From an uncultured Lacticaseibacillus sp. (GTDB taxonomy: Bacteria; Bacillota; Bacilli; Lactobacillales; Lactobacillaceae): DNA of 18,707 nucleotides. Where the stretch lies: assembly GCA_934370925.1 (NCBI GenBank), contig CAKRNG010000034.1:1-18707 (forward strand), written 5' to 3'. Positions 7,410 through 18,583 of this stretch are shown here, one piece after another. A model generated the notes under the pieces. That model had not been told where the DNA came from, ran no database searches, and saw only the letters and a list, made by a program, of their open reading frames with translations. The position numbers and the translations under genes were made by a program. The stretch's first letter is position 1, and every line of letters begins with the position of its first letter.

Positions 7410-8456
7410 TTAGAGGTCGGATGGCTTTTCAGCAACCGAGATATCACCCTTAATAATCTTTTCCTTGAATTCTTGAACCTTAGTCCAGGCCTTAGAACTC
7501 ATATTACCACGAACGAGCCGTACACCGTTACCCTTCAGACCATAAACTTGCGTTTTTCCGCCTGGGAATTTGTCATTCTTAGCAGCGGTAGCCAATTTCT
7601 GAACGGCGATGTCCACACCCTTAACGGTAGAGGTGAGCGTCACGTTGCCGCCCTTGTATTTCCCATCGGCAGTCTGGTCACGGTCAACCCCAATAACCCA
7701 AACCTTCTTGGACTTGATTGCATTCTTCGCAGCGGAGAAGACACCGGCACCGGTCCCACCAGCAGCCTGGTAAATGACATCTTCGTTGTTGTTGTACATT
7801 GCCTGTGCGAGTGCCTGACCCACATCAGCCTTGGAGAAGCTGTCAGCGTACTTCACGTCAACCTTGATGTTCTTGTTGACGGCAGCGACACCCTGACGGA
7901 AACCAGCTTCAAAACGATCGATAACTTCACCGTGAACCCCACCGATGAATCCGACCTTGTTCGTCTTCGTCGTCATTGCTGCAGCAACACCAGCAAGGAA
8001 GGCACTTTCGTTATCCTTGAAGGTAGCGCTCGCAACGTTCTTCTGCTTAATCACATCATCAATGATGACAAAGTTGACCTTAGGATTCTTCTTAGCGGCA
8101 TCAGAGACTGTCTTTTCCAGTTTGTAACCGGAACCGATAATCGTCTTGTAGCCGGCCTGGATCATCTTGTTCACGTTCGGAACAAAGTCGGCGTCAGAAT
8201 TACTCTGGGCGTAGTTGTAACCACCCACACCCTTAGCCAGGTTGTTCTTCTTACCCCACTTCTGAAGACCTTCCCATTCAGACTGGTTGAAACTCTTGTC
8301 ATCCACACCGCCGCCATCGGTTACGAGCGCAACGGAATGTGCCTTGTCCGTCTTCCCAGCTGCCTTACTACCAGACTTACTGTTACCACATGCACCCAGA
8401 ACCAGAGCCAAAACTGCGACTGCAGACGCAGTGGCTACCTTAGAAGTGAATTTCAC
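7410..8456 (-). CDS. bmpA: Nucleoside-binding lipoprotein of the Bmp family
   Basis: This 348-residue lipoprotein captures nucleosides outside the cell for the NupABC importer. Its signal peptide has a KFTSK n-region, a hydrophobic core and lipobox LGAC, with Cys23 as the lipidated residue. The mature Bmp/PBP1 fold shows DGGGVDDKSFNQ after the linker, GSGYKLE, FIGG and AGGTGAGVF, which are family-typical ligand-site segments. I chose the GTG at 8454-8456: AGGAGG lies 8 bases upstream and the signal peptide starts there. A longer in-frame ATG at 8579 would read across the promoter. It is followed by a terminator and then nupA. A close paralogue is encoded at 9337-10374. Confidence 0.94.
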   Translation of the reverse strand: MKFTSKVATASAVAVLALVLGACGNSKSGSKAAGKTDKAHSVALVTDGGGVDDKSFNQSEWEGLQKWGKKNNLAKGVGGYNYAQSNSDADFVPNVNKMIQAGYKTIIGSGYKLEKTVSDAAKKNPKVNFVIIDDVIKQKNVASATFKDNESAFLAGVAAAMTTKTNKVGFIGGVHGEVIDRFEAGFRQGVAAVNKNIKVDVKYADSFSKADVGQALAQAMYNNNEDVIYQAAGGTGAGVFSAAKNAIKSKKVWVIGVDRDQTADGKYKGGNVTLTSTVKGVDIAVQKLATAAKNDKFPGGKTQVYGLKGNGVRLVRGNMSSKAWTKVQEFKEKIIKGDISVAEKPSDL

Positions 8457-8498
8457 CGCTATTTCCTCCTCATTTTGGGGGTTACCCCGATTACCGAT

Positions 8499-8527
8499 AA
8501 TATACCACGCGAATGTCTCCTTATCAA
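8499..8527 (-). promoter_or_regulatory. bmpA promoter
   Basis: On the minus strand, -35 TTGATA (8522-8527), 17 bp, -10 TATATT (8499-8504) with an extended TGG just upstream. The leader carries a small GGGG-TAA-CCCC hairpin (8478-8488) before the AGGAGG site. The -10 region (GGTATATTAT) is shared with the second bmpA promoter. Confidence 0.75.
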
Positions 8528-8553
8528 GAACGATATGAATAATTAAAATCGGC

Positions 8554-8566
8554 AACGTTCGTAATT
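8554..8566 (-). promoter_or_regulatory. Possible PurBox upstream of bmpA
   Basis: The minus strand reads AATTACGAACGTT, matching 11 of 13 positions of the Gram-positive PurR box AWWWCCGAACWWT. It is centred about 68 bases upstream of the likely transcription start. A weaker match (AAACCGGATATT) lies about 40 bp further upstream. PurR control of nucleoside uptake is known in related bacteria. No purR gene is in view and the match is imperfect. Confidence 0.35.
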
Positions 8567-8579
8567 CAACCGCTATCAT

Positions 8580-9336: not shown

Positions 9337-10374
9337 TTACAGTTCAGACTGCTTGGACGCAACCTTAATGTCGCCGTTCACAATCTTCTCGCGGTATTCC
9401 TTAACCTTAGCCCACGTAGCCGCGCTCATGTTCCCGCGCGTTACCCGGACCCCGTTTTCCTTCAAGCCGTAGTACTGCGTGGTACCACCAGGGAACTTGC
9501 CCTTCTTGGCATCGGTAGCAAGCTTCTGCACCGCAATATCCACACCCTTGATGGTTGACGTCAACGTTACGTTACCGCCCTTGTACTTCCCATCAGCAGT
9601 CTGATCCATATCAACCCCGATGACCCAAACCTTCTTGGACTTCACGGCGTTCTTCGCAGCCGCAAAGACACCAGCACCGGTTCCACCAGCAGCCTGGTAA
9701 ATAACGTCTTCGTTGTTGTTGTACATTGCCTGTGCAAGTGCCTGACCCACATCGGCCTTGGAGAAGCTGTCAGCGTACTTCACGTCGACCTTAATATTCT
9801 TGTTTACCGCTGCAACACCCTGACGGTAACCCGTTTCGAAACGGCTAATCACTTCACCACGGAGTCCGCCGATGAAGCCGACCTTGTTCGTCTTCGTGGT
9901 CATCGCAGCTGCAACACCAGCAAGGAATGCACTTTCGTTGTCCTTGAAGGAAACACTTGCGATATTGCTCTGCTTGATTTCATCATCCATGATGACAAAG
10001 TTCGTCTTCGGATTCTTCTTAGCAGCGTCAGAAATCGTCTTTTCCAGCTTGTAACCAGAACCAATGATGGTCTTGTAACCCGCCTGGATCATCTTGTTGA
10101 CGTTAGGGGTGAAATCAGCATCAGAGTTGCTCTGGGCGTAGTTGTAACCACCTACACCCTTCACCATGTTGTTCTTCTTCCCCCACTTAACGAGGCCTTC
10201 CCATTCAGCCTGGTTAAAACTCTTGTCGTCAACCCCACTACCATCCGTAATGAGTGCAACAGAGTGCGCCTTATCCGTCTTACCAGCGTTACTACTGTTG
10301 TTACCACAAGCACCCAGAACGAGGGCCAATGCTGCGACTGCAGACGCAGCGACTACCTTAGAAGCGAATTTCAA
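9337..10374 (-). CDS. Second Bmp-family nucleoside-binding lipoprotein
   Basis: This 345-residue lipoprotein is very similar along its whole length to the bmpA product at 7410-8456; long central stretches (for example VDVKYADSFSKADVGQ) are identical. The signal peptide ends in lipobox LGAC with Cys23 as the lipid-modified residue, and the mature protein has the same DGSGVDDKSFNQ, GSGYKLE and AGGTGAGVF segments. The start is TTG, with AGGAGG 10 bases upstream. It stands alone with its own promoter, and no transporter genes follow, so it probably shares NupABC. Differences lie in the linker after the Cys and in scattered surface positions. It looks like a local duplication kept as a functional gene. 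It may differ in ligand preference, which cannot be read from sequence. Confidence 0.92.
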   Translation of the reverse strand: MKFASKVVAASAVAALALVLGACGNNSSNAGKTDKAHSVALITDGSGVDDKSFNQAEWEGLVKWGKKNNMVKGVGGYNYAQSNSDADFTPNVNKMIQAGYKTIIGSGYKLEKTISDAAKKNPKTNFVIMDDEIKQSNIASVSFKDNESAFLAGVAAAMTTKTNKVGFIGGLRGEVISRFETGYRQGVAAVNKNIKVDVKYADSFSKADVGQALAQAMYNNNEDVIYQAAGGTGAGVFAAAKNAVKSKKVWVIGVDMDQTADGKYKGGNVTLTSTIKGVDIAVQKLATDAKKGKFPGGTTQYYGLKENGVRVTRGNMSAATWAKVKEYREKIVNGDIKVASKQSEL

Positions 10375-16514: not shown

Positions 16515-16610
16515 GATGCTTGATTTGCATCTTTTATTTGGGTGCTTATTCAGCAGCGTTACAAAGATGCGCTCGGTGAAACTTAGGCTGCAAGTAGTAA
16601 TGTTACGCTG

Positions 16611-16968
16611 GTACGTGCGGGGAAAAGGCTAGCGGAAGTTTTAGAGGGTCTCCCGCGGTGATGTTGCGTAGGCGCGTGCGGGGAAAAAGTTGGCGGAGGT
16701 TTTGGGGTGTGGAAGTGGTGAAAGTTTCTTGGCGGTTTACCGCCTAGAAACGGGACGTCTTTGAGCCTGGCTGACCGGGTTTGTCAGACAGGCTCAAAGC
16801 GAGGTGGAATAACTTCAGCCGTTTTTTTGCTGGAGTTATGGAACCGTGCCCCACCACTGGAAGCACTCCAAAACCGGAGCCAACTTTTTCCCCGCACCCG
16901 CCGCCATACCCCACCACTGGAAGCACCCCAAAACCGGAGCCAACCTTTTCCCCACACCCGCCGCCACA
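16611..16968. repeat. Large inverted array of family C repeats with internal hairpins
   Basis: On the right, a 60 bp unit occurs twice in tandem (16849-16908 and 16909-16968; 4 differences). On the left, one clear inverted copy (about 16671-16720) and one degraded copy (about 16611-16665) face it, sharing GTGCGGGGAAAAAGTTGGC and GGTTTTGG. Between the arms lie three hairpins: 16724-16751, 16759-16799 and 16809-16839. The unit matches the loop and right arm of the element at 13806-13880. No credible gene lies here, although some frames stay open through the repeats. Confidence 0.8.
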
Positions 16969-17036: not shown

Positions 17037-17065
17037 TCGTCAAAACGCCGTTCGTGTGGTAAACT
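17037..17065 (+). promoter_or_regulatory. Promoter of the hflX leader
   Basis: TCGTCA (17037-17042), 17 bp, TAAACT (17060-17065) with an extended TG at 17057-17058. Transcription would start near 17072, about 28 bases before the leader peptide and about 200 bases before hflX. Confidence 0.6.
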
Positions 17066-17099
17066 CAGGGTATTAAACAACAGACAGGAGGGGAAGAAC

Positions 17100-17132
17100 A
17101 TGCGGATTCGCGTACAGAACACTCAAGACTAA
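17100..17132 (+). CDS. hflX leader peptide (10 residues)
   Basis: ATG follows a strong AGGAGGGG (17086-17093) by 6 bases and encodes MRIRVQNTQD before TAA. The near-ideal ribosome binding site on so short a frame, directly before an attenuator and hflX, points to a regulatory leader peptide. Leader-peptide attenuation in response to ribosome-targeting antibiotics is established for hflX homologues in Listeria. That the same holds here is inferred. Confidence 0.8.
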   Translation: MRIRVQNTQD

Positions 17133-17201
17133 GCTTGTCGTGCGCTGTTAGCATCCGTGTGCCCCTATGGCCAATCGGGTCGCGTTTAGCGCGGCCTTTT
17201 T
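17133..17201 (+). terminator. hflX attenuator (terminator with competing anti-terminator)
   Basis: The terminator stem is GGTCGCG (17178-17184) with CGCGGCC (17190-17196), loop TTTAG, followed by TTTTT (17197-17201). An anti-terminator could form between TGCGCT (17141-17146) and AGCGCG (17188-17193), destroying the terminator. That same TGCGCT region can instead pair with the leader ORF, GCGTAC (17110-17115) with GTGCGC (17140-17145). A ribosome stalled on the leader ORF would block this last pairing and favour read-through. Confidence 0.75.
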
Positions 17202-17269
17202 GCGTGACGGAATACAGCACCGCAAGTTCGACAATGCACCCAGACACAATCACATGGAGGATTTTTGCG

Positions 17270-18583
17270 ATGCCTGAAACCAAAACATTAGATACCATTC
17301 AAAAAACAACCAACGCCCTCATTGCGGGGATTACCAAACGCCAGGAGAACTTCGACTACACCATGACCGAGCTCGGCGAACTCGCCAAGGCGGGGGGCTA
17401 CACCGTGGTCGGCGACATGCGGCAGAAGGCGGACTTCCCCACCGGTGCCACCTACTTCGGGAGCGGGAAAGTCGAGGAACTCCGCGAAGCCGCTGAACTG
17501 CACGATGCCAGCGTCATTATCGTGAACGACGAACTCTCCCCTAGCCAGCTGCGAAACCTCGAAAAGCAGATTAAGCGCCGCGTGGTGGACCGTACCCAGT
17601 TGATTCTCGACATTTTTGGTACCCGCGCACGTTCCAAGCAGGCGAAGATGCAGGTTGAAATCGCCCAGTTGCGGTATGCCCTCCCTCGCTTGCGCAACCG
17701 GAATGCCGGCTTCGACCAGCAGGGTGGTGGGAGCACGGGCGGCGGTGGTGCTGCCCTCGCGAACCGTGGTTCTGGTGAAACCCAGCTGGAAATGGACAAA
17801 CGAATTCTGACCAAACGGATTAGCCACATCAAACACGAACTCGCTGAAGAAGAACTCAGTGAGCAAACCCGTAGCAGTCAGCGCACCTCGAGCGATATTC
17901 CCACCGTTGCCCTGGTCGGTTACACGAATGCCGGCAAGTCCACCACGATGAACGGCCTCCTCGACCTTTACGCCGACCGTCCTGAAGACAAGCAGGTTTT
18001 CGAGAAGAACATGCTGTTTGCCACCCTCGACACCTCCGTTCGCCGCATCGAACTGCCCGGCAACCGCCAGTTCCTGCTCAGTGACACGGTCGGGTTCGTC
18101 GGTAAGTTACCCACAAAGCTTGTGGATAGTTTCAAGGCAACCCTGGCCGAAGCCAAGAACGCCGACCTCTTGATTCACGTGGTTGACTACGCGGACGACC
18201 ACTATCAGGAAATGATGCAGGTGACCGAGCAGACCCTGCGAGATATCGGCATTGACGAATCCGTGCCGGTTATCGAAGCCTTCAACAAGGCCGATCTACG
18301 TGATGACCAAACAGCCTTCCCAGACGAGAACGGCAACCGGCTCATCTACTCCGCGCGCGACCACGCGTCCCTCCAGAAGCTTGCAGAAATGATTGAAAGT
18401 CGCATCTTCAAGGACCAGATTACCGCCACCTATCTGATTCCATTCACAGATGGTCAGGCAGTGAATTACCTAAACAGCGTGGCGAAGATTGAAGCCACCG
18501 ACTACCTCGAAAGCGGCACACAAATTACCGCCACGCTGAGTGAAGCGCAGGCTGGTAAAGTGCAACAGTACCGTGTCGATTAA
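17270..18583 (+). CDS. hflX: GTPase HflX, ribosome-splitting factor
   Basis: This 437-residue cytoplasmic GTPase is of the HflX family, which splits stalled 70S ribosomes and in some species gives resistance to macrolides or lincosamides. The N-terminal HflX domain (about 20-150) contains GSGKVEEL (64-71) and DRTQLILDIF (107-116). A Gly-rich linker (152-168) leads to SGETQLE. The G domain has G1 GYTNAGKST (217-225), G2 with T254, G3 DTVGF (272-276), G4 NKAD (339-342) and G5 SA (361-362), then a C-terminal domain. I chose the ATG at 17270, with TGGAGG at 17255-17260. An in-frame TTG at 17135 would lie upstream of the attenuator and add residues without family likeness. Control by its leader is likely. 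Confidence 0.96.
   Translation: MPETKTLDTIQKTTNALIAGITKRQENFDYTMTELGELAKAGGYTVVGDMRQKADFPTGATYFGSGKVEELREAAELHDASVIIVNDELSPSQLRNLEKQIKRRVVDRTQLILDIFGTRARSKQAKMQVEIAQLRYALPRLRNRNAGFDQQGGGSTGGGGAALANRGSGETQLEMDKRILTKRISHIKHELAEEELSEQTRSSQRTSSDIPTVALVGYTNAGKSTTMNGLLDLYADRPEDKQVFEKNMLFATLDTSVRRIELPGNRQFLLSDTVGFVGKLPTKLVDSFKATLAEAKNADLLIHVVDYADDHYQEMMQVTEQTLRDIGIDESVPVIEAFNKADLRDDQTAFPDENGNRLIYSARDHASLQKLAEMIESRIFKDQITATYLIPFTDGQAVNYLNSVAKIEATDYLESGTQITATLSEAQAGKVQQYRVD

Follow-up and report, generated by a model that had tools for sequence, protein, structure and literature searches.

The 200 bases 5′ of hflX in the window, the whole stretch of 18,707 nucleotides from an uncultured Lacticaseibacillus sp. 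analyzed here, probably form a transcription attenuator that senses ribosomes and would switch hflX on in the presence of macrolide-type drugs; we give this reading a probability of roughly four in five. As a reading of compared sequences, attenuation of hflX by a leader peptide is well supported: a promoter element, a charged peptide motif and a hairpin over the leader start region recur among relatives, and 23 of 30 leaders carry a candidate terminator. A preliminary description of this DNA had also read the region as an hflX attenuator, and the extended −10 promoter, ribosome binding site, 10-codon frame and intrinsic terminator that it named were all found in the sequence at the places proposed. 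Comparison bore out the peptide, the promoter and the hairpin, but not the anti-terminator suggested at that time.

The gene under presumed control, hflX (17270-18583, on the plus strand, as are all leader features described below), is the last gene of the window. It begins with the ATG at 17270 and encodes an HflXr-type GTPase of 437 amino acids, as judged by profile match and tree. The protein scored 398.4 bits against the HflX profile TIGR03156 (cut-off 216.75), and the closest matches found were those of Lacticaseibacillus sharpeae (87% identity) and L. hulanensis (86%), which makes a near relative of these two the very likely source of the window. In a midpoint-rooted tree of 58 rows, out of 106 prepared proteins, it grouped, at a support of 100/98, with HflXr of Listeria and 35 further rows from Lactobacillaceae; a second copy (L097) from a genome labelled Bacillus subtilis (G012) fell outside the HflXr group on a long branch, in a tree that was built without Lmo1296. 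The genus set consisted of 30 Lacticaseibacillus genomes searched for hflX, plus the window, and each of the 30 yielded a single hflX locus, in pieces in three (G030, G034 and G039). In these three (loci L121, L120 and L122, respectively) the frame is interrupted and the leader kept, reflecting either real loss or sequencing error. A survey of 131 family genomes, an even sample of a larger group, returned an hflX match in every one. Second matches, where listed, were weak or represented part of that gene. The controlled gene thus appears from sequence to be the only hflX copy per genome.

Transcription from the leader would be cut short at a predicted intrinsic terminator at 17177-17201, composed of a stem (17177-17185 with 17189-17197), a loop (17186-17188) and a T-run (17197-17201); we infer termination here from the sequence. 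A hairpin of −9 kcal/mol or lower followed directly by a T-run was present in 23 of the 30 leaders, compared with 2.9 (maximum 6) among shuffled downstream stretches at −9 kcal/mol and 11.9 at any energy. For L101 and L103, where the automatic pick spanned two hairpins, the inner hairpin was set by hand for the pairing, coevolution and occlusion tests described below. By the same rule of hairpin plus T-run, no terminator was found in the remaining seven leaders (L102, L104-L107, L112 and L116), and termination therefore cannot be the genus-wide output. Because all seven keep the peptide motif, and because in five of them a second frame overlaps both the leader stop and the hflX start, a translational switch has to be considered, in which stalling would alter access to downstream ribosome sites and the terminator would be secondary. 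We consider this improbable, since the window and 22 others do carry a T-run hairpin between leader frame and hflX, and since the Shine-Dalgarno sequence of hflX (GGAGGA, 17256-17261) sits about 55 bases past the terminator of the window.

The strongest clue to the signal is the Arg-Ile-Arg stretch behind the start codon, on which the preliminary description did not remark. The leader frame, MRIRVQNTQD (10 codons, from the ATG at 17100 to the TAA at 17132), is preceded by a strong Shine-Dalgarno sequence, AGGAGGGG (17086-17093), and its residues Arg2-Ile3-Arg4 form a +X+ motif directly after the start codon. A preliminary motif scan covered 80 hflX loci. In the genus set, the search for a short frame that starts with ATG and carries an Arg/Lys-X-Arg/Lys motif 5′ of hflX succeeded for the window and for 29 of the 30 genomes. 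Under a stricter rule, which required a Shine-Dalgarno sequence and the motif within residues 2-8, a leader was recognized in 29 of 31 sequences, whereas 20 rounds of dinucleotide shuffling gave 0.8 on average and at most 4; the two misses were L100, with another peptide, and L112, with a weak Shine-Dalgarno sequence. The 10-codon frame proposed earlier is present, and the inspection of related upstream regions that had been suggested as a check on the peptide finds the charged motif recurring. MR[I/L/V][R/K] opens 28 of 30 leaders, with RLK at residues 5-7 in the other two; 18 of the 28 have Arg at residue 4 and 10 have Lys, written with six different codons. Peptide length ranges from 8 to 13, and the residues past the motif are variable. 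Outside the genus, leaders passed the stricter rule in 8 of the 126 family genomes scanned (the other five of the survey belonging to the genus set), against 2.5 for shuffled sequences (maximum 6). Three of the eight resemble one another in both ribosome site and peptide, namely MRLRQVALSLQ, MRLRTSSLLSIH and MRLRLVSLLPLQ, the last from Lapidilactobacillus mulanensis.

Motifs of this kind are familiar from drug-dependent arrest. Ketolides stall ribosomes mostly at +X+ motifs, arrest with macrolides is cited for a short MRLR peptide, and arrest of ErmDL by erythromycin is possible even without an intact motif (PMC8298421); MRLR and MRLK leaders are known for msrA, ermK and ermD (PMC4335068). By analogy, ribosome arrest is predicted on MRIRVQNTQD when codon 3 occupies the P site, and we infer that the drug would be a macrolide or ketolide and that hflX would be induced by it. 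The exchange of Arg and Lys at residue 4 favors an arrest that depends on charge and on drug. It disfavors the idea of an arginine-shortage sensor, in which slow Arg codons would act as in the classical biosynthetic attenuators and for which the Arg residues at codons 2 and 4 might otherwise speak. As 10 of the 28 MR-X-R/K leaders have Lys instead of Arg at residue 4, arginine itself is not conserved at this position, and we set that sensor aside as very unlikely; nor is hflX a biosynthetic gene.

The start region of the leader is joined to the segment that follows it by a hairpin, a pairing that is supported by covariation and coevolution in the sequences compared. In the fold of the window, the Shine-Dalgarno sequence (17089-17093), the start with codons 2-3 (17099-17107) and inner segments pair with 17134-17166. 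The 5′ strand, region 1 (17089-17127), contributes segments 17089-17093 (weakly supported), 17099-17107, 17110-17111, 17114-17117, 17120-17122 and 17124-17127; the 3′ strand, region 2 (17134-17166), contributes 17134-17137, 17140-17142, 17145-17148, 17151-17152, 17153-17161 and 17162-17166. Within this hairpin, 17140-17142 pairs with CAC and 17145-17148 with ACAG, both of the frame. The fold of 17075-17208, terminator included, had a z of −3.3.

Covariation was tested on eight leaders of near relatives. With the structure taken from the window, which favors it on the cells paired, 79.5% of cells were paired, compared with 29-54% when the structure was slid. Two-sided changes were observed in 14 cells (6.1 in shuffles) and the covariation score was 0.327 (0.208 in shuffles), neither value being reached in any of 500 shuffles. 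The number of pair types was not above that of the shuffles for these eight leaders (111 of 500 had as many), and one slid version of the hairpin had 13 two-sided changes, close to the real 14. The weaker part of the hairpin is the Shine-Dalgarno helix, with 70% of cells paired. RNAalifold applied to the same eight leaders recovered 17 pairs of the window structure, from the start codon inwards, seven of them with two-sided changes, in a weak consensus (−5.4 kcal/mol) without the Shine-Dalgarno helix. One pair change is synonymous: CGG at codon 2, facing CCG in the window, becomes CGT facing ACG in L121 and L122.

RNAalifold gave no consensus structure for 13 leaders from other groups, and folding leader by leader and a test of coevolution were used instead. 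The latter compared the pairing of each leader's own regions 1 and 2 with that of swapped regions in 17 of the 23 terminator-bearing leaders, leaving out five near-duplicates (L082, L103, L114, L119 and L122) and one outlier (L120). Own regions paired better than swapped ones: only one of 2000 permutations was as good among the six near relatives, and none of 2000 among the 11 others or among all 17. Taken singly, the hairpin was stronger than 95% of shuffles in 15 of 23 leaders and not significant in eight. The earlier proposal that the leader frame pairs with a downstream segment is thus sustained by both coevolution (0/2000 in 17 leaders) and covariation (0/500). A hairpin that pairs the start codon and, in the fold of the window, the Shine-Dalgarno sequence might also serve as a heat sensor, the peptide being incidental, given that HflX is known as a heat-shock ribosome-splitting factor (PMC6310831). 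Such a sensor would leave unexplained why charge is conserved at residues 2 and 4 with varied codons, and melting of the hairpin would not obviously disable the terminator; we consider it very unlikely.

The extended −10 promoter element of the window, TGG-TAAACT (17057-17065), would place the transcript start near 17072. A sigma-70 consensus scan found no sites in the window, and the call of an extended −10 therefore rests on conservation: in 28 of 30 leaders, TGnTAnn[AC]T starts 39-44 bases 5′ of the leader ATG, compared with a mean of 0.1 and a maximum of 2 in 200 rounds of shuffling, and the promoter postulated before is in this way corroborated. Consensus scans of the window alone leave both promoter and terminator at chance level (one terminator-like site was seen where 1.7 would be expected), and none of the Rfam families passed its gathering threshold in the window; comparison across the genus puts promoter and terminator above chance. 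A spurious short frame lying by chance before the terminator of an unrelated transcript, which the scans of the window alone would have allowed, is refuted by that comparison and has a negligible probability, frame, motif, −10 element and hairpin all being conserved above shuffles.

How region 2, once released, would act on the terminator is a separate question. The preliminary description held that 17140-17146 can pair either with the leader frame or with the 3′ arm of the terminator. Both pairings can be drawn, the second with terminator loop and 3′ arm at −8.6 kcal/mol in the window, but the pairing of the region with the 3′ arm was matched by 270 of 500 shuffles and that with the whole terminator hairpin by 177 of 500. 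Among the 23 terminator-bearing leaders, region 2 exceeded 95% of shuffles in none, whether it was set against the terminator 5′ arm, the loop and 3′ arm, or the whole hairpin. Compensatory changes, which had been suggested as a check on this pairing, did not materialize in the 17 leaders of the coevolution set, since swapped regions were as good as own regions in 532 of 2000 permutations for the loop and 3′ arm; the corresponding figures were 930 for the 5′ arm and 1845 for the whole hairpin. As a specific anti-terminator, 17140-17146 with the terminator 3′ arm therefore lacks support: it is drawable, but at chance level and with no coevolution.

A change in folding on stalling is nevertheless predicted. 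Occlusion of the terminator was modeled in 21 of the 23 terminator-bearing leaders (without L103 and L119), using four assumed ribosome edges. With a ribosome on codon 3, predicted occlusion of the 5′ arm rose by 0.23-0.27 on average, compared with 0.07-0.08 when region 2 was shuffled; the change exceeded that of the shuffles at all four edges (p 0.0002-0.007), and the own change was the larger in 14-17 of the 21 leaders. The difference arises while the hairpin is free to form: in 19-20 of 21 leaders, the 5′ arm was then more occluded when region 2 was shuffled than with the natural sequence. Once the ribosome had stalled, the natural strand was no stickier than its shuffled versions in these leaders (p 0.45-0.97), a pattern that points to selection on a guard hairpin. 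Released region 2 would, in this model, disturb the terminator with no need of a dedicated partner sequence. In the window taken singly, the alternative fold predicted when a ribosome masks the leader is no better than chance, and the predicted occlusion switch is small (from 0.60 to 0.73, with 28 of 60 shuffles as large).

The sequence of events that we favor would be as follows: in the absence of drug, ribosomes would finish the short frame, and the leader hairpin (17089-17127 with 17134-17166) would form and hold region 2. With region 2 held, the terminator at 17177-17201 would stop transcription. In the presence of drug, a ribosome would stall with the Ile of codon 3 in its P site and Arg4 next to enter; region 1 would be covered and the hairpin kept open. 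Freed region 2 would then occlude the 5′ arm of the terminator, RNA polymerase would read into hflX, and HflX would split drug-stalled 70S ribosomes. A bolder version, which we offer as tentative and rather doubtful, would dispense with a dedicated anti-terminator altogether and place the sole hflX, a gene of general ribosome rescue, under a genus-wide macrolide sensor with an evolved guard hairpin. The guard would be the leader's own start region and codons, arrest on MR-X-R/K would open it, and the released GC-rich strand would spoil the terminator unspecifically; a branch with MRLRKVAP-type leaders would have been re-wired, terminator-free, to control by overlapping frames.

The closest known system is the rli80 attenuator of Listeria monocytogenes hflXr (lmo0762), which, like the window, has an R-X-R leader, a gene of the HflXr group and a terminator (PMC6310831). 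There, transcription attenuation by a 14-residue RLR leader is induced by lincomycin and erythromycin, mutation of the start codon abolishes induction, and loss of the anti-anti-terminator leads to constitutive read-through (PMC6310831). The window matches rli80 in its short R-X-R frame, in an intrinsic terminator recognized by sequence, and in the pairing of the leader frame with the next segment (the anti-anti-terminator), found by covariation and coevolution. The differences are that the rli80 peptide has 14 residues and that of the window 10; that ribosome-dependent read-through has been demonstrated in Listeria (PMC6310831) and is a proposal for the window; that the rli80 anti-terminator was tested by mutation (PMC6310831) whereas the candidate of the window is drawable and not above chance; and that Listeria has a second hflX copy whereas a single hflX locus was found in each of 30 Lacticaseibacillus genomes. 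The motif uORFC-6-1, a leader motif of mainly Bacillales with 51 representatives, likewise lies upstream of hflX and has a covarying structure and a candidate leader frame with Arg-Leu-Arg (Arg-Ile-Arg in the window), but by its description the structure is wholly downstream of the start codon (PMC8632094), whereas the window hairpin includes it, which sets the window apart. The word Lactobacillus is absent from the main text of that paper. The leaders of erm(K)/erm(D), msr(A) and mef(E)/mel resemble that of the window in their arrest peptides of the MRLR/MRLK type (PMC4335068, PMC8298421), and erm(K) and mef(E)/mel employ transcription attenuation (PMC4335068), as proposed for the window. These macrolide leaders control methyltransferase or efflux/ABC-F genes (PMC4335068), whereas the window leader precedes hflX, and in those quoted the motif follows several other residues, whereas in the window it begins at residue 2 (PMC4335068, PMC8298421). 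Among the matches listed from the open-access literature, there was no report of an hflX leader in Lacticaseibacillus. On sequence grounds, the window leader joins the known hflXr leader attenuators as a putative member and adds its occurrence throughout a genus.

The genus Lacticaseibacillus includes food and probiotic bacteria. If the reading of a drug-responsive attenuator is correct, they would possess an inducible response of their own to drugs that target the ribosome, located on the apparent sole hflX copy, in contrast to Listeria, where the response is on a duplicated resistance copy. The 30 natural leaders also form a test set for the evolution of short arrest peptides and attenuators, offering Arg/Lys exchanges at one fixed position close to the start, together with several designs of the hairpin.

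Several variants of the leader were observed. In L102 and L104-L107, which have MRLRKVAP-type leaders and no terminator, a second short frame (such as MTDDPLAPIRGDDARIYERNL) overlaps the leader stop, and its own stop overlaps the hflX start, an arrangement that suggests a translational version of the switch. L112 and L116 (MRYLRLKFAGWAR and MRDSRLKFAGWAK) have the charged motif at residues 5-7, and a T-run terminator was not found in either. L100 (G019) is the only member of the genus set without the charged motif; its frame, MLTHWFDV, about 180 bases upstream of hflX, has a strong ribosome site, a promoter-like element and, by eye, a hairpin with T-run, and possibly encodes a different sensor peptide. 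Scattered leaders elsewhere in the family, L209 (G044), L202 (G111), L163 (G071) and L129 (G157), comprise MWIEIRLRSTQSNK, MRLRIGIITNNL and MSTKKRISQ / MTNKKRISQ. In Fredinandcohnia quinoae (L055), a leader ending in GRIRIQNLNNN, with a GTG or TTG start about 310 bases upstream of hflX, resembles the RIRVQN of the window; shared descent and convergence are both conceivable.

Two further features of the window lie outside the leader. Between the upstream gene and hflX, at 16597-16963, direct repeats of 53-60 bases occur as two pairs, which are in part inverted relative to one another and up to 87% complementary over 39 bases. On the minus strand, 7410-8579 and 9337-10374 are neighboring, closely similar frames that by eye are predicted to be lipoprotein-like and that adjoin frames resembling an ABC transporter.
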